From the NCBI GenBank assembly GCA_002746415.1, contig NVXD01000021.1, forward strand, positions 1-64,000: 64,000 nt of DNA, written 5' to 3'. Below are positions 25,160 to 41,456 of this stretch, piece by piece. This DNA is from Flavobacteriaceae bacterium (lineage in GTDB: Bacteria > Bacteroidota > Bacteroidia > Flavobacteriales > Flavobacteriaceae). The first letter of the stretch is position 1. Every line of letters starts with the position of its first letter. Position numbers and translations under genes: made by a program. Under the pieces are notes generated by a model, which saw nothing but the letters and a program-made list of their open reading frames with translations, had not been told where the DNA came from and did not search any database.

Positions 25160-25256
25160 TTAACATACTTTTTACATCATAACATTAAACTTACAATAAT
25201 GCAATGAAGCTTTAATATATAGCTAACACACTCTTTACAATCTCTAGCTTTCTTTG
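25160..25256 (+). promoter_or_regulatory. Putative Pho-box array and promoter of the TonB receptor gene
   Basis: In-phase pentamers every 11 bp: ATAAC 25179, CTTAC 25190, GCAAT 25201, TTAAT 25212, CTAAC 25223, TTTAC 25234. A second-phase pair, TTAAC 25160 and TTTAC 25171, lies upstream. The last pentamer ends 10 bp before the -7 element TTTCTTTG (25249-25256). The same geometry recurs before pstS, the porin and PiT. Confidence 0.7.
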
Positions 25257-25276
25257 TCGCAACTAAAAATGATTTG

Positions 25277-28132
25277 ATGAAGTACTGTTTAATGTTCCTA
25301 ATATGTATTGCGTTTTTTAATTTAAATGCGCAGCAGACTGGAAGTATTGTTGGAAAACTTATTGATAAAGAATTAAATGATGAACCCCTAGCATTTGCTA
25401 ATGTTCTTATAAAGGAATCTACAAAGGGGACCACTTCAGGTTTTGATGGCTTATATGAACTGGCAGAATTAGCCTCTAACCATTACACTATTGTTTATAG
25501 TTATTTAGGATATAAAACTGTAGAGGTTCCAAATGTTGAAGTTGTTGCTGGCAAGGTCACTACCCTTAATATTCCGATGAGTGCATCACAGGGTGTTGTT
25601 TTAGATGAAGTTGTTGTTACCACTGCCTTGAGAAAAGATTCTGAAACAGCTTTGTTGTTAGATCAAAAGAAAGCAATAGCAATTAGGGAAAGCATAGGGG
25701 CACAAGAATTGGCAAAAATGGGAGTCACTGATATTGCAACGGCTACCACCAAAATATCAGGCGTAACAAGTAGTGAGGCTTCTGGAGCTATTTTTGTACG
25801 TGGTCTTGGGGATAGGTATTTATCTACTACCCTAAATGGTCTTCCCATTCCCTCTGATGATGTAGAAAAGAAAAACATTGACCTTTCTCTTTTCCCTACC
25901 AGAGTCATTCAAAATGTAAGCATCAGTAAAACATATTCGGCAAAGGCCACTGCAGATCAATCTTCTGGGGCCATTAACATTACCTCAAGAGCTTTAAGAG
26001 GCTCTAGTGAACTTAGTGCTGGGCTATCTAGCGGAATCAACTCCAATGTTGCAAAAAGTGGCATTTGGGATGATTTTAAAATCTCTCCCAACCAAGGAGA
26101 TGCTGTTTTTGGGTTCTATAATACAAATGTTACTACTCAAGAACAGATTACCCAACAGAGTTGGAATACGAGAAAACAAGAAAATCCAATAGACTATTCT
26201 TTTTCATTAGCTGCTGGAAAAAGAATCAAAGAAAAGTTAGCCATCTTTTTTACGGGCTCCCATTCTCGTTCATACGAATACGAGCAAGGTCTTTTTCGTC
26301 AGTATAGATCAAATTTCATTGATGACACCATAACGGATGCCACTACTTATGGTACTAATACAGTAAATACTGCCTTATTGGACCTCACTTATTTTGCTAA
26401 TGCACAACATAAATTAAAGTCGGTCACTTTCTTTATCAACAAGCTTAGCGAATCCGTTTTTGAAGGAGGGCGAAACGGGGAGGCTACAATTTTTGAAGAA
26501 ACTGCCCCAGCTGAAGGCTTATTCCAATTTATTAGAGATCAAAACACAAAGCAAACTCGTTTACTGGTAACTCAACTTTTAGGAACGCATCAAATCGGAG
26601 AAAAAAATAAACTAGAATGGGCAGGAGGGTATAATTTCCTAAATGCCGATGAACCCAACAGAATTCGAAATGAAGTGAATTTTGACCCCAACGGAATACT
26701 GGTTCAACTCGGAAGAAATGGAGGCTTTCAACAAAGAAAATCAAATCAAAAAATAAAGGATACTGAGTATAATGGTGTCCTTATGGATGTTCTTAGTATA
26801 ATAGATAAAGATGAAAAATTATTAAAAATAGAATTTGGAGTTTCTTTTCGAAACAAGAAGAGAGATTTTAGTTCAGAATTTGTTGGGGTAGAAGAATCAG
26901 CAACCAATGCCATTAATCCTTATTCGATAGACAATCTTGGAAGTATCTTTCAACAATCAAATTTTGATAATGGCTTATTGGAATTAAATTTATTGGGTTC
27001 CAATGCAAATGCTGAAAGAAAGGATATTTATAAAGGGGAACTAGATTCCAAGGCCGCTTTTGTAGCCTTTAATGCTGCCCTTAAGAGATGGAATTTTAAT
27101 GCCGGACTTCGCTATCAAAAAGATGAAATAAACGTTAGCTATGACATAGGAAATCTATTTCCCAGAATAGGAGAAAGTACACAAGACTATGACAATGTAT
27201 ATCCCAGTTTAAATATAAAGTATGCTATAAACGAATTGCATGCCTTACGCATGGCAATCAGCCGCACGCTTACACTCCCTGAGTTTAAAGAAGTGTCTCC
27301 TTTTGAATACGTGTCACCCACAGGGCAAGTTATTCGCGGTAATGTTGATGTTAAGGCCTCAAAAAATATTAATTACGATTTAAAGTGGGAATTTTTTCCT
27401 TCTGATAGTGAACTCGTTTCGGTTACCGCTTTCTACAAAGACATAACGGACCCCATTAACAAAGTCAGGGACAGAGGATCTGCAGGCGTATTTTCTTATT
27501 TCAATTCTGCAAAAAAAGCAAAAGTATTTGGGTTAGAAGCGGAAGCAAAATTGAACCTCATAGCACCTAGTGTCGATAATGAAAATGAGCCAAAGTCTGG
27601 GAATGAATTAAACCTTGTATTAAATGCTACAAGAATGTGGCACTCACAAGATTTAAGAGAAATTTTCAATGAAAATGGCGCGCTATTAAGAACTTTTAGA
27701 TATAAAGGAATTACCAAAACAGATTTACAGGGAGCATCGGATTGGATATTCAACACCAGCCTAAATTTTAATACCGTAGGAGATGATTCCTTTGCCACAT
27801 CATTAAGTGCCAACTATGCTTCAGACAAAATATTTGCCTTGGGTGTTCCCACAGATCAATCCAATCGAAATATTTTTTATGATGATGCCATTATTGAAAA
27901 GGGATTTCTTGTCTTGAATGGATTGATAAGCAAGGAATTTGGTAAACATTGGAAACTGTCTCTAATCGGTAAAAACCTATTGAATCCTCAAATAAAACAA
28001 ACACAAAAAATACTGCGAAATGTAAGTGAGCTTGCTGCAAATCCAGCAGTAAAAAGAAATGAAGTGCAAGAAACAGTACGCTCTTATACAACGGGTATCA
28101 CCCTAAGCATAGGTGTCAATTATAACTTTTAA
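25277..28132 (+). CDS. TonB-dependent outer membrane receptor
   Basis: A 951-residue outer membrane transporter (ATG 25277; the TTG just before it is less likely). The signal peptide ends at LNAQ (about 18). A carboxypeptidase regulatory-like domain (about 22-105) is followed by a plug (about 110-230) with VFVRGLGDRYLSTTLNGLPI-type features such as FVRGLGDRYLSTT. The 22-strand barrel ends with the aromatic NYNF. The sequence is not SusC-like and no SusD partner is encoded. The adjacent gene encodes a beta-helix lipoprotein, and the promoter carries the repeat array found before pstS. The substrate is therefore probably a phosphorus source, which is inference. Confidence 0.9.
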   Translation: MKYCLMFLICIAFFNLNAQQTGSIVGKLIDKELNDEPLAFANVLIKESTKGTTSGFDGLYELAELASNHYTIVYSYLGYKTVEVPNVEVVAGKVTTLNIPMSASQGVVLDEVVVTTALRKDSETALLLDQKKAIAIRESIGAQELAKMGVTDIATATTKISGVTSSEASGAIFVRGLGDRYLSTTLNGLPIPSDDVEKKNIDLSLFPTRVIQNVSISKTYSAKATADQSSGAINITSRALRGSSELSAGLSSGINSNVAKSGIWDDFKISPNQGDAVFGFYNTNVTTQEQITQQSWNTRKQENPIDYSFSLAAGKRIKEKLAIFFTGSHSRSYEYEQGLFRQYRSNFIDDTITDATTYGTNTVNTALLDLTYFANAQHKLKSVTFFINKLSESVFEGGRNGEATIFEETAPAEGLFQFIRDQNTKQTRLLVTQLLGTHQIGEKNKLEWAGGYNFLNADEPNRIRNEVNFDPNGILVQLGRNGGFQQRKSNQKIKDTEYNGVLMDVLSIIDKDEKLLKIEFGVSFRNKKRDFSSEFVGVEESATNAINPYSIDNLGSIFQQSNFDNGLLELNLLGSNANAERKDIYKGELDSKAAFVAFNAALKRWNFNAGLRYQKDEINVSYDIGNLFPRIGESTQDYDNVYPSLNIKYAINELHALRMAISRTLTLPEFKEVSPFEYVSPTGQVIRGNVDVKASKNINYDLKWEFFPSDSELVSVTAFYKDITDPINKVRDRGSAGVFSYFNSAKKAKVFGLEAEAKLNLIAPSVDNENEPKSGNELNLVLNATRMWHSQDLREIFNENGALLRTFRYKGITKTDLQGASDWIFNTSLNFNTVGDDSFATSLSANYASDKIFALGVPTDQSNRNIFYDDAIIEKGFLVLNGLISKEFGKHWKLSLIGKNLLNPQIKQTQKILRNVSELAANPAVKRNEVQETVRSYTTGITLSIGVNYNF

Positions 28133-28170
28133 ACTAAAAATAAATCTTATTAAACATTAAAGAAACAATT

Positions 28171-29274
28171 ATGAAAATGAACAATTTAAAAAAATCAGTA
28201 GCTTTTATAGCTTTATCCGCTTTGTTACTAGCAAGTTGTAGTAGTGACGATGGCGGCACGGACCCAGTAGTGGCAAACTGCTCAGATGGCATCATGAATC
28301 AAGATGAAACTGGAGTTGATTGCGGTGGGTCTTCATGCAATGCATGTATCGTTGCAGAAGTTACAGACCTTGAGGGCGCTTTGACTAAAGACAGAACACT
28401 TTTGGCTACAGAAACATATGCCTTGAAAGGAACTTTTAGTGTACCATCAGATATTACATTAACTATCCCTGCAGGCACTACTATTATTGCGGATGTTGAA
28501 ACTGGTGAGGAAACCAGCACATACATTGTTGTCCAAAAGGGCGGTAAGATAGACATTCAAGGTACTGCTAGTGCCCCTGTAATTATGACTTCGGCCAATA
28601 AAACTCCAGGTGATTGGGGCGGATTGGTAATTGCTGGTGATGCAACAACTACTGAAGGTGTAGATGCCGTTGCTGAAGTTGGTCAGATTATATATGGCGG
28701 CACCAATGATACAGACAATTCTGGTTCCATTAGTTATTTGGTTATAAAATATGCTGGCGCCCAGATTAATGCGGACTCACAATATAATGGTCTTACATTG
28801 TATGCAGTAGGTTCTGGAACTACTATTGGATATGTTGCCATAATAGATGGGCAAGATGATGGTGTTGAATTCTTTGGTGGAACGGTTTCAGCGTCTAATC
28901 TCTATATTGAAAACAACGAGGATGATGCAGTTGACTGGACGGAAGGTTGGAACGGTACTTTAACCAACACCTATATCACCCATACAAAAGCAGGTTTTTC
29001 TACAGCTTTGGAAGCCGATGGCTCCAATGGAAATCCAACTTTAACCAATTTTACAGCTGTATCTAACCAAGGTGGTACCGCACTACAGTTTAAAAAGACT
29101 TCTGGCGCTACATTTATAAATATAAGTGTAACAGGATATACCACCAATGTTGATATGAAAGATGCTGGCCCCGTTGCAAATGTAATTGTTGATGCTAATC
29201 CATTAGCCACTACAACAGATGATGTATTCAGTGCTACTCCTCTAGATATATCTACTTGGACTTGGTTTAACTAA
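28171..29274 (+). CDS. Beta-helix surface lipoprotein paired with the TonB receptor
   Basis: A 367-residue lipoprotein. The lipobox LLASC places the lipidated Cys at 23, followed by an acidic stretch SSDDGG typical of surface export in this phylum. Residues 37-59 form a Cys-rich segment with DGIMNQDETGVDCGG and CNAC. The rest (about 75-355) is rich in Gly, Asn, Thr and short strands (VQKGGKIDIQGT, WGGLVIAGDA, NLYIENNEDDAVDW), as in right-handed beta-helix proteins. No catalytic motif was recognised. It starts 38 bp after the receptor gene and probably shares its promoter, so it may capture or process the receptor's ligand. Confidence 0.82.
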   Translation: MKMNNLKKSVAFIALSALLLASCSSDDGGTDPVVANCSDGIMNQDETGVDCGGSSCNACIVAEVTDLEGALTKDRTLLATETYALKGTFSVPSDITLTIPAGTTIIADVETGEETSTYIVVQKGGKIDIQGTASAPVIMTSANKTPGDWGGLVIAGDATTTEGVDAVAEVGQIIYGGTNDTDNSGSISYLVIKYAGAQINADSQYNGLTLYAVGSGTTIGYVAIIDGQDDGVEFFGGTVSASNLYIENNEDDAVDWTEGWNGTLTNTYITHTKAGFSTALEADGSNGNPTLTNFTAVSNQGGTALQFKKTSGATFINISVTGYTTNVDMKDAGPVANVIVDANPLATTTDDVFSATPLDISTWTWFN

Positions 29275-29437: not shown

Positions 29438-29482
29438 TTAGTATAAAATAAACATTACATTAACATTGACATTGGTTCTTTG
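29438..29482 (+). promoter_or_regulatory. Orphan Pho-type promoter
   Basis: Pentamers TTAGT 29438, TAAAC 29449 and TTAAC 29460 are spaced 11 bp. The last ends 10 bp before GTTCTTTG (29475-29482), the same geometry as the pstS promoter. It drives only a decayed reading frame. Confidence 0.55.
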
Positions 29483-29504
29483 TCACCGAAAAAAACTAGA
29501 ATAA

Positions 29505-29611
29505 ATGAAATTCAAAATTGGGGCTATTTGCCTTTACTAAGCATCTCTTTTCTATCTGCACAAGAAAAAGAGCATACATTTACCGTAATTTTTGAACCAA
29601 ACCTTGGATAA
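29505..29611 (+). pseudogene. Decayed exported-protein gene behind the orphan promoter
   Basis: ATG 29505 opens as MKFKIGA and hits a stop after 11 codons. Shifting the frame by two bases inside the signal peptide continues with LLSISFLSAQEKEHTFT, a good signal peptidase I site, and then stops at 29611. The mature protein is otherwise gone, as the next 200 bp show no matching frame. The identity of the lost protein is unknown. The rest of 29612-29817 holds a short CCCTC-AAT-GAGGG palindrome and no gene. Confidence 0.5.
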
Positions 29612-29817
29612 TTAAGCCCTCAATGAGGGGTGAACCTAAGAACTTCAGTACATGATAAAAACCAGCTTTTAAATTATATTGTTTTGATAAAAAAATACTA
29701 TAATTTAAACCTGTCAGGACTTAATAATGGTGCAACATGACCACCTTGAACTAATAACAACCAATTTTTGCCATGTACTTAGCCTAAAAACACAAAATGC
29801 ACTAAGAGCAATAAAGC

Positions 29818-31650
29818 TTATATATCTTCCTCTATATTCTCTTTAATCCATTTAACACAGTCCGTAAAACTATTAAAAATACACTCTTCTGGAATGAAAT
29901 CTGGAATAATGTCAATTACCTCCATCATATACCTTGGTTGCTTTAATACATTGACAAAAAGCACATCTATGTTTTTTGTTTTTAAATCTTGAAGCATGTC
30001 TTCCATAGCGTATAAACCAGACTGATCCATATATTGCATTCTTTCTAACCGCATAATTACAGTTGATGCCGTATGGGGAATTTGGTTAGCCAACAATTGA
30101 AAATCACTTGTGGATCCAAAAAATAAAGGTCCTTTTAAATGCTTGATAAATACATTTTCCTTTAACTGTTTTGGGAAATCTATTTCATCTTTCCATACTT
30201 CTTCTTTTAAGGTTTTCACATTTGAGCTTTCCGCTGTTAGGTCTCCTATTTTCTTCATAAACATCAAAGATGCAATCACTAATCCTATTCCAACAGCATA
30301 AACAAGATTCCAAACAGATGACAATACCAAAACAACTATCATAATAATAACTTCTGGACGGGGCATATAAGGAATTGCTTTAAGTCCTTTATAATCCATT
30401 ACCCCTATACCAACAGTAATCAATATTCCCGCTAAAACAGCAGCCGGAATTTGAGATGCAATTGGTCCCAATGCCAATAAAATAATAAGGAGCAAAATAC
30501 CCGCTAACATGCCCGATAATTTTGTTTTTCCTCCAGCATTAATATTCACTACAGTTCTAATGGTAGCTCCTGCTCCGGGAATACCTCCAAATATTGCTGC
30601 AATACTATTGCCTATTCCCTGGCCTATTAATTCTTTATTGGGTTTATGCTTGGTTTTGGTCATGTTATCCGCAACTACAGAAGTCAACAAAGAATCAATA
30701 GCCCCTAATAACGCCAGTGTTAATGCTGTAAATACATAGGGTGTAATGCCCCCTAAAGTAAAATTGGTGAAAATTTCCAGGTTTGGAATAGGCAAACCAC
30801 TTGGGATTTCTTCTATTGGTCTATAGTTTAATTTAAACCCAATGGCTATTCCCGACATAACCAAGAGCGCAACCAAGGTACTGGGTACTGCTTTCGTTAT
30901 TCGTTTAAACCCATAAATAATAAAAATTGTCCCTAAAGACAACATAAACTCCAACCAATTTATATTTTGAAAAGCCCTGGGCAATACCTTTAAAGAGCCA
31001 ATTACACCAGACGCATCTGAACTGGCAAGTATTTGAGATTCTTCTAAAATCTGTTCTTTGGTAATTCCTTTTGCCCTCTTTATAGATTCTTTAAAGTCTT
31101 CTAACACCAATATGCCTTCTCCAGCTTCTTCCTTTAAAATATTCTCTAGAATCAATTCTTCGGCATAGGGCTTAAATTGTTCCACAAATGCGGTATCTTC
31201 CTTTGGATAATACCCAATGGAAGGTAGAATCTGTGTCACTAAAATAATAACACCTATGGCCGTCATAAAACCCGAGACAACAGGATAAGGTATGTATTTA
31301 ATGTATTTTCCTAAACCACTAAACCCCAAAACAATTTGCATAATTCCAGCCAATAGGAATACTGTTAAAATCGCTGGTAATGCCTTAGACAAATCACCAT
31401 TAAAACTTCCTATTATACCCGCAATCACTACCATGCTTACTGCAGTCATAGGAGCTGTTGGCCCAGAAATCTGAGTATTGGTTCCGCCAAACAAGGCTGC
31501 AAAGAAACTTAAAAAAATAGCCCCATAGAGACCTGCACTTGGCCCTAATCCAGAACTGACCCCAAATGCTAATGCCAAGGGAAGGGCAACAATTCCTGCC
31601 GTGATGCCTCCAAAAAGATCTCCTTTAAAATTTGAAAATAAATTTTTCAT
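29818..31650 (-). CDS. SulP-family anion transporter with STAS domain
   Basis: A 610-residue inner membrane anion transporter. About 11-14 membrane helices occur, starting at residue 12. The first segment PLALAFGVSSGLGPSAGLYG and FGGTNTQISGPTAPM fit the SulP substrate site. A hydrophilic insert (about 150-225) separates two helix groups. A STAS domain fills about 485-605 (MRLERMQYMDQSGLYAMEDML). It follows the carbonic anhydrase gene by 21 bp on the same strand, so the likely substrate is bicarbonate rather than sulfate, as in BicA-like systems; this is inference from context. It lies inside the phosphate region but in opposite orientation. Confidence 0.92.
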   Translation of the reverse strand: MKNLFSNFKGDLFGGITAGIVALPLALAFGVSSGLGPSAGLYGAIFLSFFAALFGGTNTQISGPTAPMTAVSMVVIAGIIGSFNGDLSKALPAILTVFLLAGIMQIVLGFSGLGKYIKYIPYPVVSGFMTAIGVIILVTQILPSIGYYPKEDTAFVEQFKPYAEELILENILKEEAGEGILVLEDFKESIKRAKGITKEQILEESQILASSDASGVIGSLKVLPRAFQNINWLEFMLSLGTIFIIYGFKRITKAVPSTLVALLVMSGIAIGFKLNYRPIEEIPSGLPIPNLEIFTNFTLGGITPYVFTALTLALLGAIDSLLTSVVADNMTKTKHKPNKELIGQGIGNSIAAIFGGIPGAGATIRTVVNINAGGKTKLSGMLAGILLLIILLALGPIASQIPAAVLAGILITVGIGVMDYKGLKAIPYMPRPEVIIMIVVLVLSSVWNLVYAVGIGLVIASLMFMKKIGDLTAESSNVKTLKEEVWKDEIDFPKQLKENVFIKHLKGPLFFGSTSDFQLLANQIPHTASTVIMRLERMQYMDQSGLYAMEDMLQDLKTKNIDVLFVNVLKQPRYMMEVIDIIPDFIPEECIFNSFTDCVKWIKENIEEDI

Positions 31651-31671
31651 AATTATTTTTAAGCTGTTATT

Positions 31672-32301
31672 TTATTCGTAAAATTTGACTTCTCCAGAAT
31701 TAATATCATACATAGCACCAATAATCAATATTTCATTATTGTCTTGCATTTCTGCCAAAACGTTACTTTCTTTTAAAATTCTATCAATAGTTAAACTCAC
31801 ATTTTTCTCAGAGACCTCATTGACAAATTCCAAATTCGAGGAATTTCTTAAATTGATATCCTGTGGGGATTTTACGGCATTTACTGCTGGTTTAATATTC
31901 TCTAACATGGCTGTTAAATTTCCCAATTTCGCATTATCACATGCCCCTTTTATGGCACCGCATTTTGTATGCCCCAAAACTACCACAAGTTTGGTTCCAG
32001 CTAATTTGCACGCAAACTCCATACTTCCCAAAATATCTTGGTTCACAAAATTGCCTGCTATCCTCACACTAAAAACATCCCCTAGCCCTTGATCAAAAAC
32101 TAACTCAGCTGATACTCTTGAGTCAATACAACTTAAAATAGTTGCAAATGGAAATTGTCCTTCGCTAGTATCATTGACTTGCTCTAATAAATTTCTATTG
32201 GCCTTTAAATTATTTTGAAATCTTATATTTCCCTCTTTTAAATATTGCAATGACTTTTGTGGTGTCATTGTTGCTTGTGTTTCTTTTGTATGTGTTTTCA
32301 T
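31672..32301 (-). CDS. Beta-class carbonic anhydrase
   Basis: A 209-residue zinc enzyme that interconverts CO2 and bicarbonate. The zinc ligands are Cys58, His111 and Cys114, with the catalytic dyad Asp60/Arg62 in SCIDSRV and HTKCGAIKGA further on. No signal peptide is seen, so it is cytoplasmic. The gene is 21 bp upstream of the SulP transporter gene in one operon. The pair would import and equilibrate bicarbonate, for instance for carboxylation reactions. No Pho-like repeat array precedes it. Confidence 0.95.
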   Translation of the reverse strand: MKTHTKETQATMTPQKSLQYLKEGNIRFQNNLKANRNLLEQVNDTSEGQFPFATILSCIDSRVSAELVFDQGLGDVFSVRIAGNFVNQDILGSMEFACKLAGTKLVVVLGHTKCGAIKGACDNAKLGNLTAMLENIKPAVNAVKSPQDINLRNSSNLEFVNEVSEKNVSLTIDRILKESNVLAEMQDNNEILIIGAMYDINSGEVKFYE

Positions 32302-33345: not shown

Positions 33346-33401
33346 TTGACTAAAATATAACTTATGATTAACGTTACCTTAACACTGCAAAGCGACTTTT
33401 G
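33346..33401 (+). promoter_or_regulatory. Putative Pho-box array and promoter of the porin gene
   Basis: Pentamers TTGAC 33346, ATAAC 33357, TTAAC 33368 and TTAAC 33379 are exactly 11 bp apart. The last ends 10 bp before the -7-like GACTTTTG (33394-33401), 27 bp upstream of the ATG. Confidence 0.75.
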
Positions 33402-33428: not shown

Positions 33429-34652
33429 ATGAAATCTAATGTTATCCTTACCTTTTTAAATCTCTTTATAGGAGTTCTTCTATTCGCTCAAGAGACGAAC
33501 GAAAATTCTTTTAGCTTTAAATGGGACAATGGCTTCAAAATAGAAAGTGCTGATAAGCAGTTTCTATTTAAATTTGGTGGTCGTATTATGCTAGATCATG
33601 CATATTTTAACCAAAATACTGAACTAGACGCTAATCTTGGCCCATTGCAAACCACCAACAGTACGGAAATAAGGCGAGGTAGATTTTTTGTTTCTGGAGC
33701 AATCTATAATAATGTAGAATTTAAGCTTCAGGCTGATTTTGCCGGAGCAGAAGTAAGTCTTAAAGACGTTTATATTGGAATCAAGAATATTCCTATAATC
33801 GGGACTTTACGCATGGGCCATGTTAAGGAGCCTTTTCGTTTGGAAACCATGACCAGTAGTAAATATATCATATTCTTGGAGCGGTCGTTTTCCGAAAGCT
33901 TTTTACCGGTGAGAAATAATGGTGTTATTTTGTTCAATCAATTTTTTGATAAAAAACTAGGTGTCCAGGCCGGGTATTTTAGGAATTCTGATGGCACTGC
34001 CAACAGCATTGACGCAAATAACGGATACGCTCTAACTGCTAGAGTAACATCCTTACTCTTAAACAATGAAGAAAAAAAACAATTATGGCATGTTGGACTG
34101 GGATTGAGCAGTAGAAAAATAGACGATAATACTTATAAGATTTCATCTAGACCAGAATCGCACTTAGGCTTAAAATACATCAATACTGGCACCATAGACA
34201 ATATTGACAAGATAAACTTTACCAATTTTGAAACTGCCTTTGTTTTAGGTTCTTTAGCACTGCAAGCAGAATATCTTACGGCGAATGTTAACATGGATGC
34301 AGCAACAAACGATTATAAATTTTCCAGCTATTACGGACAAGCAAGTTATTTCCTTACAGGAGAAAACAGAAAATATAAAAGTTCTTATAGCGGATTTGGG
34401 CGCATAAAACCCAATAACAATTTTGGTGGGAAAAATGAAGAAGGCTCTGGTGCCTGGGAATTGGCTTTGCGTTATTCCCATTCAAATTTAAACAGTGAAG
34501 ATATATTGGGAGGTGAACAGTCAGATGTAACCTTGGGCCTTAATTGGTACTTGAACTCAGCTACACGAATAATGCTGAACCATGTGTGGGCAGATGTAAT
34601 AGATACTGGAAAAGCTAGCATTTTTCAAATGCGTTTTCAGATAGATTTTTAA
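33429..34652 (+). CDS. Phosphate-selective porin (OprO/OprP family)
   Basis: A 407-residue outer membrane porin. The signal peptide ends near LLFAQ (about 20). The mature part begins KFGGRIMLDHAYFNQ and RRGRFFVSGAIYNNVEFKLQ-like strands typical of the OprO/OprP phosphate porin family, and the last strand ends in Phe (MRFQIDF). An in-frame TTG at 33399 falls inside the -7 element and cannot be the start. It is transcribed alone, between its repeat-array promoter and a strong terminator, and immediately precedes pstS. Together they take phosphate or polyphosphate across the outer membrane and into the periplasm. Confidence 0.88.
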   Translation: MKSNVILTFLNLFIGVLLFAQETNENSFSFKWDNGFKIESADKQFLFKFGGRIMLDHAYFNQNTELDANLGPLQTTNSTEIRRGRFFVSGAIYNNVEFKLQADFAGAEVSLKDVYIGIKNIPIIGTLRMGHVKEPFRLETMTSSKYIIFLERSFSESFLPVRNNGVILFNQFFDKKLGVQAGYFRNSDGTANSIDANNGYALTARVTSLLLNNEEKKQLWHVGLGLSSRKIDDNTYKISSRPESHLGLKYINTGTIDNIDKINFTNFETAFVLGSLALQAEYLTANVNMDAATNDYKFSSYYGQASYFLTGENRKYKSSYSGFGRIKPNNNFGGKNEEGSGAWELALRYSHSNLNSEDILGGEQSDVTLGLNWYLNSATRIMLNHVWADVIDTGKASIFQMRFQIDF

Positions 34653-34741: not shown

Positions 34742-34819
34742 TTTACATTCTGGTAACATTATAGTAGCACATTATTAATTTGTACTTAACCAAAACTTTA
34801 CTAATCAAACCTTTCTTTG
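34742..34819 (+). promoter_or_regulatory. Putative Pho-box array and promoter of the pst operon
   Basis: Six pentamers stand 11 bp apart: TTTAC 34742, GTAAC 34753, GTAGC 34764, TTAAT 34775, TTAAC 34786, TTTAC 34797. The last ends 10 bp before TTTCTTTG (34812-34819), the same -7 sequence and spacing as at the TonB receptor. The ATG lies 26 bp after the -7 element. Confidence 0.8.
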
Positions 34820-34845: not shown

Positions 34846-35799
34846 ATGAAAAAACTAATTTGTATTCTTTCTCTGGCACTAACTTTAGGAGCATGTGGAG
34901 GTAAAAAAAATAAGGAAGGAAGTTCAAAAAACGCAACTACTTTATCCGGAACAATAAAGGTTGATGGTTCAAGCACCGTTTTCCCCGTTACTGAGGCTGT
35001 TGCAGAAGAGTTTAGAGCTATACAGCCCGATGTAAAAGTTACCATAGGTGTTTCTGGAACTGGCGGAGGGTTCAAAAAATTCTCAAGAGGAGAAACAAAT
35101 ATTTCCAATGCTTCCCGCCCTATCAAGGACAAAGAGAAAGCTGCATGTAAAGAAAATAATATTACCTACTTAGAATTAGAAGTGGCATATGACGGTTTAG
35201 CCGTTCTTGTTCATCCTGAAAATGATTGGGTGGCTAATTTTACCGTTGAGGATTTGAAGAAGATTTGGGAGCCAGCTGCCCAAGGAAAAATAATGAAATG
35301 GAATCAAATTCGCCCTGAATGGCCTAACGAGGAACTTCACCTATTTGGCCCTGGAGTTGCTTCCGGAACCTATGATTATTTTACAGAGGCTATTGTTGGT
35401 AAAAGTGGTTCCAGTAGAGGTGATTTCACCGCTAGTGAAGACGATCATGTTTTGGTACAAGGCATCGCAGGCGATAAATTTTCTTTGGGATTTTTTGGAT
35501 TGGCATACTATAGCGAAAACAAAGACAAGTTAAGGTTAATAGGTGTTCATAACGGCGAAGAAGTCGTTAAACCTACATTGGAAACCGTAAGCAACGGCAC
35601 ATACAGACCATTATCCAGGCCCTTGTTCATCTATGTAAACAGTACCTCCATTGCATCACCAGAGGTGGTAGAATTTGTTGATTTCTACATAGAAAATGCA
35701 GGCGAATTATCAAAAGACGTTGGATATATTCCTCTTCCATCAGAAAATTACGCCAATCAGAAAGAAAATTTTAAAACTTTTGTTGAAAGTAACAAATAG
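34846..35799 (+). CDS. pstS: Phosphate ABC transporter, substrate-binding lipoprotein
   Basis: A 317-residue PstS-family binding protein. The lipobox LTLGAC puts the lipidated Cys at 17. The phosphate-binding loops are [31 protein letters not shown] and the [19 protein letters not shown] segment, as in the bacterial PstS family with Ser/Thr/Arg contacts. Start chosen at ATG 34846, since an upstream in-frame ATG (34780) lies in the promoter array. It is the first gene of pstSCAB-phoU and is separated from pstC by a hairpin that may raise its expression above that of the permeases. Confidence 0.95.
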
Positions 35800-35812
35800 A
35801 CAGAAGTTTCAA

Positions 35813-35845
35813 GGATAACCGGGTGTGTAAAATCACCTGGTTTCC
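35813..35845 (+). other. Intercistronic stem-loop between pstS and pstC
   Basis: The hairpin AACCGGGTG/CACCTGGTT (one G-U pair, 8 nt loop), extended by GG/CC, fills the 64 bp gap. It lacks a T-run, so it is more likely a 3'-end protector or partial attenuator than a full terminator. Confidence 0.65.
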
Positions 35846-35863
35846 TTATATAATCTTATACTG

Positions 35864-36742
35864 ATGCGCAAAATCAAAGAATTAGTAATTGAAAAGTCAC
35901 TCTTAACAAGTGCATTGATTACAATTGCCGTGACAATTGGCATTATTCTAGTGCTCTCTATAGAAACCTTTAGGTTCTTTAGTGAAGTGTCTATTATAGA
36001 TTTTTTTACTGATACACAATGGACTCCATTATTCACAGAAAAACATTTTGGAATATTACCGCTACTTTCTGGCACATTACTCACCTCCTTTATAGCCATT
36101 GCATTTGCTTTGCCGGTAGGCTTATCCATCAGCATCTATTTAAGTGAGTATGCTCCAAAAAGTTTTAGAAAAACAATTAAGCCTTTATTAGAGTTGTTGG
36201 CATCAGTACCAACGGTTGTATATGGTTTTTTTGCCCTAGTGGTTGTTACACCATTTTTGCAAGGAATTTTTCCAAATTTATCTGGTTTTAACTCGCTCTC
36301 AGCAGGAATTGTAATGGGAATCATGATTATTCCTTACATATCCTCCATTAGCGAAGATGCATTACATGCAGTCCCAAAAGAACTAAGGGAAGCCGCTTTT
36401 GGAATGGGTGCCACCAAGTTACAAACTGCTTTTAAGGTTATTGTGCCCGCAGCATCTTCAGGTATTATTGTCTCCATTATTTTGGCAATTTCTAGAGCTA
36501 TCGGGGAAACTATGATTGTTGCCATAGCGGCAGGACAACAACCTAGATTAACATTAGACCCTACAGTGCCAATTGAGACCATCACCGCATATATAGTGCA
36601 GGTAAGTTTGGGAGATGTGCAACATGGATCTATGGAATACAGAACAATTTTTGCTGCTGGCATCACCCTCTTTGTATTTACATTTCTATTAAATTCTCTG
36701 AGTTATTGGATTCGGAAAAAATATCAGGAGAAATATGAATAG
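35864..36742 (+). CDS. pstC: Phosphate ABC transporter permease PstC
   Basis: A 292-residue integral membrane permease with six helices (first at about 13-33). The cytoplasmic EAA loop that contacts PstB reads LREAAFGMGATKLQTAFKVI. The conserved GVSGE-like end motif IGETMIVAIAAGQQP fits PstC. It pairs with PstA to form the channel and is energised by PstB. It overlaps the pstA start by 8 bp, an indication of coupled translation. The start follows the pstS-pstC hairpin. Confidence 0.95.
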   Translation: MRKIKELVIEKSLLTSALITIAVTIGIILVLSIETFRFFSEVSIIDFFTDTQWTPLFTEKHFGILPLLSGTLLTSFIAIAFALPVGLSISIYLSEYAPKSFRKTIKPLLELLASVPTVVYGFFALVVVTPFLQGIFPNLSGFNSLSAGIVMGIMIIPYISSISEDALHAVPKELREAAFGMGATKLQTAFKVIVPAASSGIIVSIILAISRAIGETMIVAIAAGQQPRLTLDPTVPIETITAYIVQVSLGDVQHGSMEYRTIFAAGITLFVFTFLLNSLSYWIRKKYQEKYE

Positions 36743-37589
36743 TATTCAAAAAAACAGGTTAAAAGACCAAGCCTTTAAATATTGGGGAATATGCTGCACG
36801 TGTATGGGATTGGCCTTACTCATCATATTCATTGGAGATATTCTAATTGATGGAATACAAAGAATTGATTGGGGTTTTATAACTAGTCTACCCTCTCGAA
36901 AACCAGAAAAGTCAGGAATCTACACTGCTCTTATGGGCAGTATCTGGATTTTATTTTTCACAACTATAATTGCATTTCCAATAGGCGTTGCCGCGGGTAT
37001 TTATTTGGAGGAATATGGTAAAAAAAATAAACTGGCAGGAATTTTAGAAATCAACATTTCTAATCTTGCAGGAGTACCTTCAATTATTTATGGGCTTTTG
37101 GGCTTGGAAGTATTTGTCAGAATTATGAATTTAGGGGCTAGTGTTTTAGCGGGGAGCTTAACATTATCATTGTTAATTCTTCCCATTGTAATCGTGGCTA
37201 CCAGGGAGTCCATAAAAGCTGTTCCGTCTTCTATAAAAGATGCCTCATATGCCTTGGGGGCCTCAAAATGGCAAACCATCTGGTACCAAATACTGCCCGC
37301 TTCCAGTGGAGGTATTTTAACAGGTGTAATATTGGCGCTTTCTAGAGCTGTAGGGGAAACAGCTCCATTAATTGTAGTAGGAGCACTCGCCTATGTGCCA
37401 TTTGCTCCAGAAAGTCCTATGGATGAATTTTCTGTGCTGCCTATTCAAATATTTAATTGGATCTCTAGACCGCAGCATGGTTTTATTGAAAATGCTGCAG
37501 CAGCAATTATTATTTTACTTTTTATAACTTTTATGATGAACGGCATTGCCGTTTACTTTAGAAACAAATGGCAGAGCAAATGGAAATAA
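36735..37589 (+). CDS. pstA: Phosphate ABC transporter permease PstA
   Basis: A 284-residue permease with six membrane helices, the first at about 18-40. The EAA loop reads [20 protein letters not shown] and the conserved segment [16 protein letters not shown] matches PstA. It forms the transmembrane pore with PstC. It overlaps pstC by 8 bp and pstB by 22 bp, so the three are tightly coupled. The sequence shows no truncation. Confidence 0.95.
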
Positions 37590-38407
37590 GTATGGAAAAA
37601 CCTATAGATGAAGTTATCGTTTTGGATAATATTATAGATTTATCATTAAAAAAAACACCCAAGATAGCTGTTAGCAATGTAAAAGTTTGGTATGATGATT
37701 TCCAAGCAATAAAAGGTATTGATATGGAGATAAAACCAAATACCGTTACCGCCTTTATTGGCCCTTCTGGATGCGGAAAATCTACCTTCTTACGTTTGTT
37801 CAATAGAATGAATGACTATGTAGATAGCTTTAAAATGGAAGGCAAAATAAAAATTGATTCTAAAAATATTTATAAGAAAAAAATAAATGTAGAAGAGCTG
37901 CGTAAAGAAGTGGGAATGGTATTTCAAAAACCAAATCCTTTTCCAAAATCCATATTTGAAAATGTAGCTTACGGTCTAAAAATCCAAGGAATTAAGGATA
38001 AAAAATTCATCAAAGAACGAGTTGAATCATCCTTAAAACAAGTAGCGCTTTGGAATGAAGTAAAAGACAATCTTAATAAATCTGGTTTGGCTTTATCTGG
38101 AGGGCAGCAACAACGATTATGCATTGCCAGAACATTGGCAGTTGAACCTTCCATAATTCTAATGGATGAACCCACCTCTGCCTTAGACCCAATATCAACA
38201 GCAAAGATTGAGGAACTCATTTTTGAGCTTAAAAAGAAATACACCATCGTAATTGTTACGCATAACATGCAACAAGCAAGTAGAATAAGTGATTACACCG
38301 CCTTTTTCTACTTGGGAGCATTAATAGAGTTTGATAAAACAAAGACCATTTTCACAAACCCAAGTAAAGAACAGACCGAAAACTACATTACGGGTCGTTT
38401 CGGATAA
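37568..38407 (+). CDS. pstB: Phosphate ABC transporter ATP-binding protein
   Basis: A 279-residue ATPase. Walker [10 protein letters not shown] (65-73), signature LSGGQQQR, Walker B IILMDEP and the H-loop THNM are all present. The N-terminus is about 25 residues longer than usual ([17 protein letters not shown]), if translation begins at ATG 37568, which lies 22 bp inside pstA; an ATG at 37583 or 37592 is also possible. It powers PstCA. phoU follows 12 bp later. Confidence 0.96.
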
Positions 38408-38419
38408 AATATAATAAAC

Positions 38420-39082
38420 ATGGTAAATGCCGAATATCAAAGAGAGGTAATAAATCAGGCAGCATTTGATATGCTCGTTCTTTGTAAATCTCAATTAAAA
38501 AAAGCCAAGGAAGCCTTTATATTGCATGATGAGGATTTAGCGGAGGAAGTTATTCATACAGAAATCAGGGTTAACGCCATGGATTTAAGAATAGGAAGAG
38601 ATTGTGAAAAATTCTTAGCACTATACAATCCGGTAGCAATTGATTTACGGTTTATCATGGCCGTTCTAAAAATAAATTCTGATTTAGAAAGAATAGCTGA
38701 TCATGCTCGCAATATTTCCAATTACGTCATTGAAGACAACAAAAAAATATCCTCCCATTTAATCCAAGCTGTACAATTTGAAAAAATGTATCAGATCATA
38801 AATTCCATGCTGGACAATATTACTTTTGCCTACAATCAAAATGATGTAAAAGCAGCGAGAAAAGTCTTTAAAAAAGATAAAATCTTAGATAAAATCAATA
38901 TTAAATCTTTCTGCGTCTTGGAAGAAGAGATAAGAAAAGACAATACAATAATAAAAGAAGCGCTGTTATTATTTTCAGTAGTTAAAAAACTAGAGCGTGT
39001 GGGCGACCTTATCAAAAACATAGCTGAAGAAATTATTTTTTATGTTGACGCAGAAGTTCTAAAGCATACCAAGAAAAAATGA
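38420..39082 (+). CDS. phoU: Phosphate signalling protein PhoU
   Basis: A 220-residue helical protein with two PhoU three-helix bundles (about 10-100 and 115-210). The first carries the metal-binding ExxxD-type helices around LRFIMAVLKINSDLERIADHARN. The family links Pst occupancy to the PhoR kinase and represses the Pho response when phosphate is plentiful. It ends the pst operon and its stop overlaps the first ATAAC pentamer of the PiT promoter by one base. No phoB/phoR genes are encoded in the window. Confidence 0.95.
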   Translation: MVNAEYQREVINQAAFDMLVLCKSQLKKAKEAFILHDEDLAEEVIHTEIRVNAMDLRIGRDCEKFLALYNPVAIDLRFIMAVLKINSDLERIADHARNISNYVIEDNKKISSHLIQAVQFEKMYQIINSMLDNITFAYNQNDVKAARKVFKKDKILDKINIKSFCVLEEEIRKDNTIIKEALLLFSVVKKLERVGDLIKNIAEEIIFYVDAEVLKHTKKK

Positions 39083-39146: not shown

Positions 39147-41456
39147 ATGTTTATGGATAATATTTATTTGTTAATGATTATTGCCCTGGCTGTTTTAGCC
39201 GTGGCTGATCTTGTTGTGGGGGTTAGTAATGATGCGGTTAACTTCTTAAACTCTGCTATTGGCTCCAAAGCTATTTCCTTCAGGACCATAATGATAGTGG
39301 CCAGTGCTGGTATTGCTGTAGGTGCAGTATTCTCTAGCGGGATGATGGAAGTTGCTCGTAAAGGTATTTTTAATCCTAGTGAGTTTATGTTTAATGAGAT
39401 CATGATTGTCTTCATGGCCGTTATGATTACAGACATACTTCTACTTGATTTTTTCAATACCATTGGCATGCCCACTTCCACAACTGTTTCTATTGTATTT
39501 GAATTGTTAGGAGCAGCCGTAGCCATAGCTTTAATAAAAATTTACAGCAAAGAAGATGGCTCTTTTGGAGATGTCATTACTTATATAAATACAGATAAGG
39601 CTTCACTTATCATATTTGGAATTTTACTCTCTGTTGTGGTAGCATTTTCCATTGGAGCATTTGTACAATGGATTTCTAGGCTATTATTGTCCTATAATTT
39701 TGAAAAGAAAGCGATGTGGGTCGGTGCTTTGTTTGGTGGATTTGCAATAACAGCAATCACTTACTTTATTTTCATGAAAGGGTTAAAAGGTACATCCTAT
39801 GCCAGTGAACCTTTTGACATTCTTGGAGGTAGCACCATGAAAGACTTTTTAGAGACTCAAGTGTTACCAATTGTTTTGGTCAGCTTTGTATTATGGTCTC
39901 TTATATCCTATGCCCTTATAGCCTATGCCAAAACAAATATTTATAAACTTATTATCATTGTCGGAACATTTGCATTGGCATTGGCCTTTGCAGGTAATGA
40001 TTTGGTTAATTTTATTGGTGTTCCTATAGCGGCTTATAATGCTTTTGAACATTGGACAGCATCCGGAGTCTTAGCTACAGAGTTTCCCATGGATGTATTG
40101 GCCGAAAAGGTACCTACTAACAATTTGTTATTGTTTATTGCTGGAATGATTATGGTATTAACCTTATGGTTTTCCAGCAAAGCAAAGAAAGTGGTAAAAA
40201 CATCATTGGATTTGTCCAGTCAAGGAGCAACTAAAGAACGTTTTCAGCCTAATTTCTTATCTCGTGGTTTTGTTCGTACGGCTATGGGTATGTCACAAAT
40301 GTCTTCCTATATTCTTCCTAAATCTTGGCAATTAAAAATTGAAAAACAATTTGAAGTCCCTGTTATCCCTTTAGCAAAAGATAAAACCTATGAATTACCC
40401 GCTTTTGATATGGTTAGGGCCGCAGTAAACCTCATGGTCGCAGCTGTTTTAATTTCTATTGCAACCTCATATAAATTACCCCTTTCCACTACCTACGTTA
40501 CTTTTATGGTGGCAATGGGTACCTCACTTGCAGATAGAGCTTGGGGGGCAGAAAGTGCCGTATATAGAGTGGCAGGAGTTCTTAATGTTATTGGGGGATG
40601 GTTTTTTACAGCATTTAGTGCTTTTACAGCAGCAGCTTTTGTGGCGTATCTTTTAAACTTGAATTTAACCCTAATGTTTCCTTTACTTTTGGTTATAGCC
40701 TTTGGGTTACTAGCAAGAAATTATATTTCCCATCGGAAAAAAACTGAGGAAACAAAAGCAGAAGACAGTTTAAACAGAGCAGAAAGCAGTTCCATACAAG
40801 GCGTTATTGAGGAAAGTGCAAGCAATATTGCGCGTGTGGCAAAAAGAACTAATAAACTATACACAAACAGTATAAACGGTCTTGCAAAACAAGATTTGGA
40901 TTTACTGAAGAAAAACAAAAAAGGAGTCGTAAAACTCTCTGGTGAAATTGATGACCTAAGAGATAATATCTTTTATTTTATTAAAAACCTAGATGAGACC
41001 AGTGTAGGGGCAAGCAACCTCTACATCAATATATTAGGCTATTTACAAGATATGGTTCAGTCCTTGGAATATATTACTAAAATAACCCACAAACACATCA
41101 ACAACAATCATAAAAAGCTTAAATACAATCAAATAAAAGAACTTAAAGAAATAAACTTAGAATTGGATGCTTTATTGAGCAATACTAAAAAAGCATTTGA
41201 CAATCGATCTTTTCAAGAAATCGGAGTTTTATTAAACAATAAGCAAAAATTATTTGATTTAGTCTCAGAGAAAATTCAAAAACAAGTTGCTAGAACACGT
41301 ACTGAAGAATCCAGTCCAAAGAATACCACTTTGTATTTTTCTTTGCTTTTGGAAACCAAAGATTTAATAACCGCAACCATGAATTTATTGGAGTTATATT
41401 ATAACGAACATGATAGTTCTGTAGCACCCGCGACAGTAGAACAACCGGAGGAATAA
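39147..41456 (+). CDS. PiT-family inorganic phosphate transporter with PhoU-like C-terminus
   Basis: A 769-residue protein, start ATG 39147 (or ATG 39153). The two PiT signatures GVSNDAVNFLNSAIGSK (near 25-41) and FAGNDLVNFIGVPIAA (near 275-290) mark the inverted repeats of this cation-coupled phosphate transporter, with about 10-12 helices to residue 530. Residues about 560-760 form long helices (SGEIDDLRDNIFYFIKNL, ALLSNTKKAF) resembling a PhoU or DUF47 domain fused to the transporter. That would place a regulatory module on the low-affinity system. It follows phoU and has its own promoter, and its transcript is ended by the hairpin at 41481. Confidence 0.93.
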   Translation: MFMDNIYLLMIIALAVLAVADLVVGVSNDAVNFLNSAIGSKAISFRTIMIVASAGIAVGAVFSSGMMEVARKGIFNPSEFMFNEIMIVFMAVMITDILLLDFFNTIGMPTSTTVSIVFELLGAAVAIALIKIYSKEDGSFGDVITYINTDKASLIIFGILLSVVVAFSIGAFVQWISRLLLSYNFEKKAMWVGALFGGFAITAITYFIFMKGLKGTSYASEPFDILGGSTMKDFLETQVLPIVLVSFVLWSLISYALIAYAKTNIYKLIIIVGTFALALAFAGNDLVNFIGVPIAAYNAFEHWTASGVLATEFPMDVLAEKVPTNNLLLFIAGMIMVLTLWFSSKAKKVVKTSLDLSSQGATKERFQPNFLSRGFVRTAMGMSQMSSYILPKSWQLKIEKQFEVPVIPLAKDKTYELPAFDMVRAAVNLMVAAVLISIATSYKLPLSTTYVTFMVAMGTSLADRAWGAESAVYRVAGVLNVIGGWFFTAFSAFTAAAFVAYLLNLNLTLMFPLLLVIAFGLLARNYISHRKKTEETKAEDSLNRAESSSIQGVIEESASNIARVAKRTNKLYTNSINGLAKQDLDLLKKNKKGVVKLSGEIDDLRDNIFYFIKNLDETSVGASNLYINILGYLQDMVQSLEYITKITHKHINNNHKKLKYNQIKELKEINLELDALLSNTKKAFDNRSFQEIGVLLNNKQKLFDLVSEKIQKQVARTRTEESSPKNTTLYFSLLLETKDLITATMNLLELYYNEHDSSVAPATVEQPEE

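Follow-up and report, generated by a model that had tools for sequence, protein, structure and literature searches.

The locus examined here raises the question of what a gene for a TonB-dependent receptor and the lipoprotein gene directly behind it contribute to a flavobacterium, and whether the two respond to phosphate starvation. They lie in a stretch of 64,000 nucleotides (hereafter the window) from the genome assembly of a Flavobacteriaceae bacterium (GCA_002746415.1; contig NVXD01000021.1, positions 1 to 64,000, forward strand), and an earlier note on this DNA had proposed that they form an uptake module induced by low phosphate. Membership of the pair in the phosphate-starvation regulon is well supported, because a promoter pattern taken from the window recurs out of sample in relatives, phosphate genes lie near most of the related pairs and the counterparts in Flavobacterium johnsoniae are reported to be induced. 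Judged by sequence relationships, the pair belongs to a widespread and already reported kind of system, in which a low-phosphate TonB receptor is accompanied by a beta-helix lipoprotein of the FII/ElpS type, and we consider it probable that the two genes form one PhoB-controlled operon for a two-part outer-membrane receptor of a phosphorus-containing compound.

Results

The pair and its promoter

The features of the pair, and the promoters that share its signature, are as follows.

25161 to 25195, + strand: further half-sites TTAACAT, TTTACAT, AACATTA and CTTACAA, without a -7 element (weight-matrix score 4.9)
25224 to 25238, + strand: proximal Pho-box-like repeat TAAC-N7-TTAC, with a period of 11 base pairs (bp)
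25249 to 25256, + strand: -7 element TTTCTTTG, at a fixed distance from the repeat
25277 to 28132, + strand: TonB-dependent receptor (ATG start, 951 amino acids) with signal peptide, CarboxypepD_reg-like N-terminal domain, plug and beta-barrel
28171 to 29274, + strand: surface-type lipoprotein of 367 amino acids with a single right-handed beta-helix domain, here called LIP
28279 to 28347, + strand: Cys-rich stretch of LIP, residues 37-59, located by translation
28855 to 29094, + strand: conserved part of LIP, residues 229-308, located by alignment columns
33369 to 33401, + strand: the same promoter signature upstream of a Porin_O_P gene
34787 to 34819, + strand: the same promoter signature upstream of pstS

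The receptor and pstS promoters both read TAAC-N7-TTAC-N14-TTTG and that of the Porin_O_P gene TAAC-N7-TAAC-N14-TTTG, so that all three share the pattern TWAC-N7-TWAC-N14-TTTG, with half-sites 11 bp apart and 14 bp between the second half-site and TTTG. The likeness between the promoters of the pair and of pstS, whose own -7 element TTTCTTTG lies at 34812-34819, is thus exact, and more regular than the shared -7 sequence and repeats that had first drawn attention to it. The 8-mer alone means little, because flavobacterial sigma-A promoters ordinarily carry TAnnTTTG as their -7 box (PMC9723704, in the part cited here); it is the fixed arrangement that counts.

Having been derived from the window, the pattern was tested out of sample on relatives. 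The first set comprised 48 regions upstream of receptor genes, the window's own and some duplicates included, and 27 of these carried it against 0.03 expected. A larger collection, of about one locus per genus, drew on the 131 of 199 genomes (our own counted) with a receptor match at E <= 1e-60 and comprised 130 loci (L060-L189) with 132 receptor genes, some of these loci being fuller stretches of those in the first set. Here 86 of the 132 cases had the pattern ahead of the leading gene of the pair, compared with 1 of 554 unlabelled open reading frames (ORFs) of the same loci; the pattern also preceded 20 of 56 porin genes and none of 89 dGTPase genes. When either spacer was altered the count over the 132 upstream regions fell to between 0 and 2, and on the reverse strand it was 0. 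A weight matrix built from the 86 relatives' sites only, with the window outside the training set, extends the box to TAAC-N5-CTTTACA-N9-TTTCTTTGC and ranks the sites of the window in the order 25224 (41.0 bits), 34787 before pstS (24.4), 33369 before the porin gene (22.5) and 29450 (14.6), the next reaching 4.9.

The genome encodes a PhoB orthologue that is 78% identical to the PhoB encoded beside the pair in one relative (locus L049). In the cited part of a DAP-seq study of Riemerella PhoP, an OmpR-family regulator that we take to be a PhoB counterpart, the most conserved bases are TTTAACA (PMC9603813), which the half-sites of the window resemble. Among the open-licence papers listed in our literature searches, none dealt with the present signature in Bacteroidota.

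Conservation of the pair and of its neighbourhood

A lipoprotein homologue lies within two ORFs and on the same strand as the receptor in 130 of the 132 cases, with the receptor first in 115 and the lipoprotein first in 15. Phosphate genes were counted near the pair twice, the strict recount applying tighter identity limits than a looser first count that had taken in distant histidine kinases and ABC proteins. By the strict count phoB/phoR lie near 33 pairs, Pit-type permease genes near 77, porin genes near 56 and pst genes near 5, and at least one such gene near 115 of 132; the looser figures are 36, 77, 58, 8 and 117. The loci share ancestry, and these counts are therefore of non-independent events. 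Two settings recur, one in which the pair is divergent from phoBR and another in which it lies between a dGTPase gene and a MORN-repeat gene, porin gene and Pit gene; these two settings, and the arrangements found outside the phylum, are separate associations.

Linkage to iron or carbohydrate genes had been named beforehand as the finding that would count against a phosphate role, and the recurrent labelled neighbours include instead phoBR, Porin_O_P and Pit. One representative of each of ten of the largest unlabelled neighbour clusters was also inspected: no SusD, carbohydrate-uptake or iron-uptake gene was seen among the ten, most of which either have housekeeping functions (deaminase, chloride channel, methyltransferases, LysE, LuxE-like, ParA/Mrp, glycosyltransferase, OmpA) or encode proteins with a type IX secretion tail. 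Together with the promoter counts, the 115 of 132 neighbourhoods and the induction of the F. johnsoniae relatives described below, this upholds the proposal of the earlier note that the pair is regulated by phosphate starvation.

Several small genes accompany the related pairs. Thirty of the loci L060-L189 contain 31 ORFs for small proteins, mostly of about 125-138 residues, that are similar to a portion of the receptor, which is apparently the N-terminal domain (e.g. L063, L065, L069, L082, L099 and L113). In loci of the phoBR setting (L062:4866-5174, L090:13626-13949 and others) the pair has close neighbours that code for proteins of about 105 residues, one of them with a type IX secretion tail. 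In Aquimarina and some others (L054, L055, L057, L058, L175) two different pairs, one of each receptor subgroup, stand in tandem.

Outside the receptor-based collection, 195 of 296 drawn Bacteroidota genomes encode the lipoprotein family at E <= 1e-25, a count in which receptor adjacency played no part. A further 21 plasmid or chromid records match the lipoprotein, and a TonB receptor adjoins it in all five that were opened; all ten proteins of these five records match profiles built from our alignments. In Alteromonas macleodii the order is phoB, phoR, a phosphate-binding protein gene, an oxygenase gene and then the pair, followed by DUF3450 and an ExbB-type gene, and in Pseudoalteromonas a single gene separates the pair from a DUF3450-ExbB-ExbB-ExbD-TonB set on its upstream side. 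These DUF3450/ExbB-type genes (L216, L217) perhaps provide a dedicated energy supply. Indioceanicola and Sphingomonas carry the lipoprotein gene, the receptor gene and type II secretion genes in that order, while in Aureibacter, a member of the Bacteroidota, the receptor precedes the lipoprotein.

Relationship to described systems

The earlier note saw no resemblance of either protein to a known phosphorus system, and this proved wrong. Both are related to Fjoh_0545 and Fjoh_0546 of F. johnsoniae, which the cited part of Lidbury et al. (2020, PMC8115612) describes as a receptor and a lipoprotein (FII), respectively, both in the phoBR cluster. On phosphate depletion their transcript fold changes, apparently on a log2 scale, are 8.02 and 9.91, and FII rises in the exoproteome (PMC8115612). 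The same source gives two related lipoproteins, FI and FIII; FI to FIII are 31-36% identical to ElpS of Caulobacter and were homology-modelled on polygalacturonase. A sentence in it also counts three TonB receptors and two SusCD complexes that respond to phosphate only, without naming them there.

In our collection, locus L192 has the gene order glycosyltransferase-porin-PhoR-PhoB-receptor-lipoprotein, which fits Fjoh_0541-0546, and we take it by this order to be the Fjoh_0545/0546 locus of F. johnsoniae. Its lipoprotein is 38% identical to LIP over 362 columns and its receptor 32% identical to that of the window over 984 columns, and the receptor gene carries the same promoter signature. The window pair thus shares with this F. 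johnsoniae system (PUSIV) the order of receptor and then beta-helix lipoprotein, a neighbourhood of phosphate genes and the promoter. PUSIV lies beside phoBR, whereas the window pair is preceded by a dGTPase gene and followed by genes for SulP, carbonic anhydrase, the porin, Pst and Pit; and, unlike PUSIV, the window receptor falls in the closer type A subgroup (identities of about 44% and above), whose lipoproteins usually have two helix domains.

In Caulobacter, elpS (CC0170) encodes a lipoprotein and is followed by the TonB receptor gene cc0171 and then by type II secretion genes, and ElpS is found at the cell surface (Le Blastier et al. 2010, PMC2996285, in the part cited here). A phosphate-starvation lipoprotein adjoining a TonB receptor is common to both systems, and the window pair is probably related to ElpS/CC0171, by way of the published identity of FI-FIII to ElpS and the alphaproteobacterial gene order rather than by direct comparison. 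The Caulobacter order is the reverse of that in the window and matches Indioceanicola and Sphingomonas. ElpS is moreover cleaved and released in a manner dependent on type II secretion (PMC2996285); no type II secretion gene was seen beside the pair in the window.

Like SusCD/PusCD systems, the pair combines a lipoprotein with a TonB receptor whose N-terminal domain is CarboxypepD_reg-like, the partner there being of the SusD family and here a beta-helix protein. Two-part receptors such as TbpA/TbpB and BtuB/BtuG likewise combine a surface lipoprotein with a TonB channel, but their lipoproteins and ligands are others and the comparison is one of analogy only.

Architecture of the receptor and of LIP

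The receptor ORF is listed from a TTG at 25274, an alternative start to the ATG at 25277, and the protein exceeds the cut-offs of Pfam PF13715, PF07715 and PF00593. Its AlphaFold2 model (mean pLDDT 87.3) matches TonB receptors in the PDB, the best matches being heme, siderophore and other iron receptors; TbpA is also among the matches. LIP follows on the same strand after a gap of 38 bp. The absence of a SusD partner stands as first described: the flanking genes encode a dGTPase and a SulP permease, LIP belongs to no Pfam family, and neither a SusD nor an iron-uptake gene was seen among the scanned neighbours in the window.

LIP has the lipobox LLASC followed by SSDDGG. Acidic residues after the lipobox Cys are surface export signals in Bacteroidota, and at least two are present in 121 of 127 homologues with a detected lipobox (147 examined). 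This feature, with FII in the exoproteome and ElpS at the surface, favours by analogy the display of LIP at the cell surface. The Cys-rich segment singled out in the earlier note does exist (residues 37-59), and a central role for it was rejected, its pattern being present in 16 of 147 homologues.

At E <= 0.01 LIP is assigned to neither a Pfam nor an NCBIfam family, and a sequence search of PDB chains gave nothing convincing; among 76 members of the family the listed matches were weak ones, for example to Beta_helix in five and to Pectate_lyase in two. The AlphaFold2 model (mean pLDDT 89.9) is all-beta from about residue 66 and matches beta-helix proteins, the fold search pointing to the general right-handed beta-helix class only (best Foldseek E 3.8e-3). 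VIA-align Z scores of 18-21 are alike for tailspikes, epimerases, lyases and NosD, and the fold therefore names no function.

More can be drawn from conserved residues. In an alignment of 76 domains, namely that of the window and 75 of 92 non-redundant domains, these 92 having been chosen from 191 by likeness to the window protein, D229, D230, E233, D251, D252, D255 and E281 are invariant, and every row has K or R at position 308; invariance here refers to these 76 rows only. Judging by strand positions in the model, the acidic residues would lie on successive helix turns. The motif also holds in Alteromonas, Pseudoalteromonas and Aureibacter, while a pattern search did not find it in the Sphingomonas homologue and missed half of it in the first Indioceanicola domain.

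In glycoside hydrolases of family GH28 the catalytic residues are Asp on two rungs together with an RxK rung. The hhalign alignment pairs D230 with the Asp of the GH28 NxDG motif, D251-D252 with the two Asp of DD and K308 with the Lys of RxK (RLK), and the step between the aligned acidic motifs is 21/22 residues, the same in GH28. The score is 36.0, at a probability of 15-25%; 60 column shuffles averaged 16.3 and reached 22.0 at most, and the reversed profile gave 16.6. A Pel9A-like profile (PF22842), a thin one with two proteins of long coverage, scores slightly higher (39, probability 45%), and part of the signal is therefore common beta-helix; Pel9A has a DDxxD calcium site, which D251-D252-D255 of LIP may resemble. 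GH28 itself (PF00295) gave no match to LIP at a limit of E 10 in HMMER, whose filters drop weak matches, and is not among the best 25 families for the 76 members. From these sequence patterns, the acidic cluster is predicted to form a cleft in which an anionic polymer would probably be bound or cut, and its GH28-like layout is the best lead to a mechanism, a weak one.

The number of helix domains differs among relatives. Among ten type A lipoproteins, two domains occur in eight and three in the others, with a spacing of mostly 309 residues; L090, of the same genus as the window, has three domains, LIP has one, and L176 (347 amino acids) probably likewise. Three domains are present in Alteromonas and Pseudoalteromonas and two in Indioceanicola. 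Residues 61-110 of LIP most resemble the first domain in seven of nine relatives and residues 311-367 the last in six of nine, which is what recombination between the repeats, or their collapse during assembly, would produce. In eight relatives the repeats are 67-89% identical in DNA, with identical runs of up to 65 bp. Assembly collapse is a possible source of the single domain and an unneeded one; L176 is also of single-domain size. Domain number evidently varies freely, which suits a binding array. Three repeats were seen in L090, L085, L087, L066, L216 and L217, and two Bacteroidota genomes (G555, G570) have open frames of about 2,320 residues with several helix-domain matches.

Neighbouring genes in the window

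Phosphate genes begin about 4 kilobases downstream of the pair.

33429 to 34652, + strand: outer-membrane protein of the Porin_O_P family (PF07396, E 4e-49; start codon inferred)
34846 to 39082, + strand: pstS, pstC, pstA, pstB and phoU (NCBIfam TIGR02136, TIGR02138, TIGR00974, TIGR00972 and TIGR02135, respectively; pstS start inferred)
39147 to 41456, + strand: PHO4-family phosphate permease (Pit; PF01384), which recurs near the pair in relatives

Matches to the four families of the stretch from pstC to phoU (TIGR02138, TIGR00974, TIGR00972, TIGR02135) are all over the cut-off. Between the pair and the porin gene lie genes for a SulP permease and a carbonic anhydrase (29818-32301), which also stand beside the pair in several relatives (e.g. 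L091, L093 and L155). At 29450-29640 the fourth promoter signature (14.6 bits) is followed by a broken coding-like stretch without an intact gene; the part after 29483 may be an old porin gene, its likeness to a porin start being weak (E 0.29 over 34 columns). A MORN-repeat gene (L047:14944-15303) lies between the lipoprotein and the porin or Pit gene in many relatives, and a tblastn search with it against the window gave nothing convincing (best E 5.6).

Discussion

We favour, as the probable account of this locus, a single operon for a two-part receptor; PhoB binding, co-transcription, surface display and a physical complex of the two proteins are its inferred parts. At low phosphate, PhoB would bind the 11-bp direct repeats just 5' of the -7 box and raise transcription of the pair together with pstS and the porin gene. 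At the cell surface, a molecule that carries phosphorus and is probably large and anionic would be bound, and perhaps cut, by the beta-helix of LIP with its acidic cluster, and the product would be handed to the partner TonB receptor and imported for periplasmic phosphatases, Pst and Pit.

A number of observations weigh against this account. In our own genome the loose pattern is unenriched, with 7 sites compared with 10 for a reversed control and three of the 7 being those from which it was built; with one mismatch allowed there are 93 sites against 170, and around the four strict sites outside the window no phosphate gene was recognised among the ORFs, to which no family search was applied. 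The own-genome count is uninformative, and the promoter case therefore rests on relatives, where the strict pattern is missing in 46 of 132 loci and stands before 1 of 5 pstS, 0 of 35 phoB and 0 of 76 Pit genes. Seventeen of the 132 stretches hold no phosphate gene by the strict count, at least four of these exceptions being short contigs or contig ends (L094, L105, L131, L149), and the operon of the pair in the window holds no phosphorus enzyme. The cited parts of the Riemerella studies describe the PhoP motif as highly similar to that of ArcA (PMC9603813) and report that pstS rose on double deletion of two-component genes (PMC5399024), and in the F. johnsoniae cluster the OprP porin is uninduced, with a fold change of -1.3 (PMC8115612). 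From Caulobacter, the part of PMC2996285 cited here reports cc0171 as constitutive, its deletion as not stopping ElpS production, and no change in cell phosphate on transfer to poor medium, as measured by a method of low sensitivity. Nor did we find evidence of a substrate for the pair, and none of the open-licence papers listed in our searches names one.

In one alternative LIP would be chiefly an enzyme that acts on anionic glycans, a polysaccharide hydrolase or lyase of a divergent GH28- or pectate-lyase-like type. By opening the glycans it would release phosphorus or make it accessible, and the receptor would import the fragments as in a polysaccharide utilisation locus. We regard this as rather improbable: the alignment of D230, D251/D252 and K/R308 with the GH28 motifs at a score beyond every shuffle argues for it, as do the weak matches of 2 of 76 members to Pfam Pectate_lyase (best E 0.0011) and the published modelling of FI-FIII on polygalacturonase (PMC8115612), whereas the low hhalign probability, the absence of GH28 from the matches of LIP and from the best 25 families of the 76 members, the slightly higher score of the two-protein Pel9A-like profile and the acidic motifs missed by pattern in Sphingomonas and incomplete in the first Indioceanicola domain all speak against it. 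Less probable still, and in our view unlikely, are two loosely linked functions, with LIP a surface or released helper of extracellular phosphatases on the model of ElpS and the receptor importing something else under the same regulation. Overexpression of ElpS raised phosphatase activity although the purified protein itself had none (PMC2996285), and FII is present in the exoproteome (PMC8115612), both of which fit such a helper. Deletion of elpS, however, left phosphatase activity unchanged (PMC2996285), a result that tells against a helper and against the two-part receptor alike, and genes that stay together in 130 of 132 loci and in all five opened plasmid or chromid records speak against a loose link.

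That the pair serves iron or carbohydrate uptake and lies near pst by chance we hold to be very improbable. The receptor model does match iron receptors best in the PDB, as would many TonB receptors, but the promoter signature and phosphate neighbourhoods across relatives, the reported rise of the F. johnsoniae relatives when phosphate is depleted (PMC8115612) and the lack of SusD or iron-uptake genes among the scanned window neighbours and the ten cluster representatives all point elsewhere. Returning to the two-part receptor, a bolder version would make the pair one ancient outer-membrane machine, shared by Bacteroidota, Alteromonadales and Alphaproteobacteria, whose task would be to capture an anionic polymer bearing phosphorus at the cell surface and to process it there. 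One to several helix domains would do the binding or cutting, the active site would be acidic and GH28-like, and the machine would form a class of its own, distinct from SusCD and from small-molecule TonB systems; we offer this tentatively and consider it possible but doubtful.

These results bear on phosphorus acquisition in several ways. The signature offers a simple means to list candidate phosphate-starvation genes in Flavobacteriaceae, and the conserved acidic residues of LIP are defined positions to mutate. Phosphate-starved F. johnsoniae devotes much of its exported protein to this type of lipoprotein, FI making up 18.7% of the exoproteome (PMC8115612, in the part cited here). Should the pair indeed import a phosphorus polymer, it would represent a missing step in the recycling of organic phosphorus in the sea and in soils.

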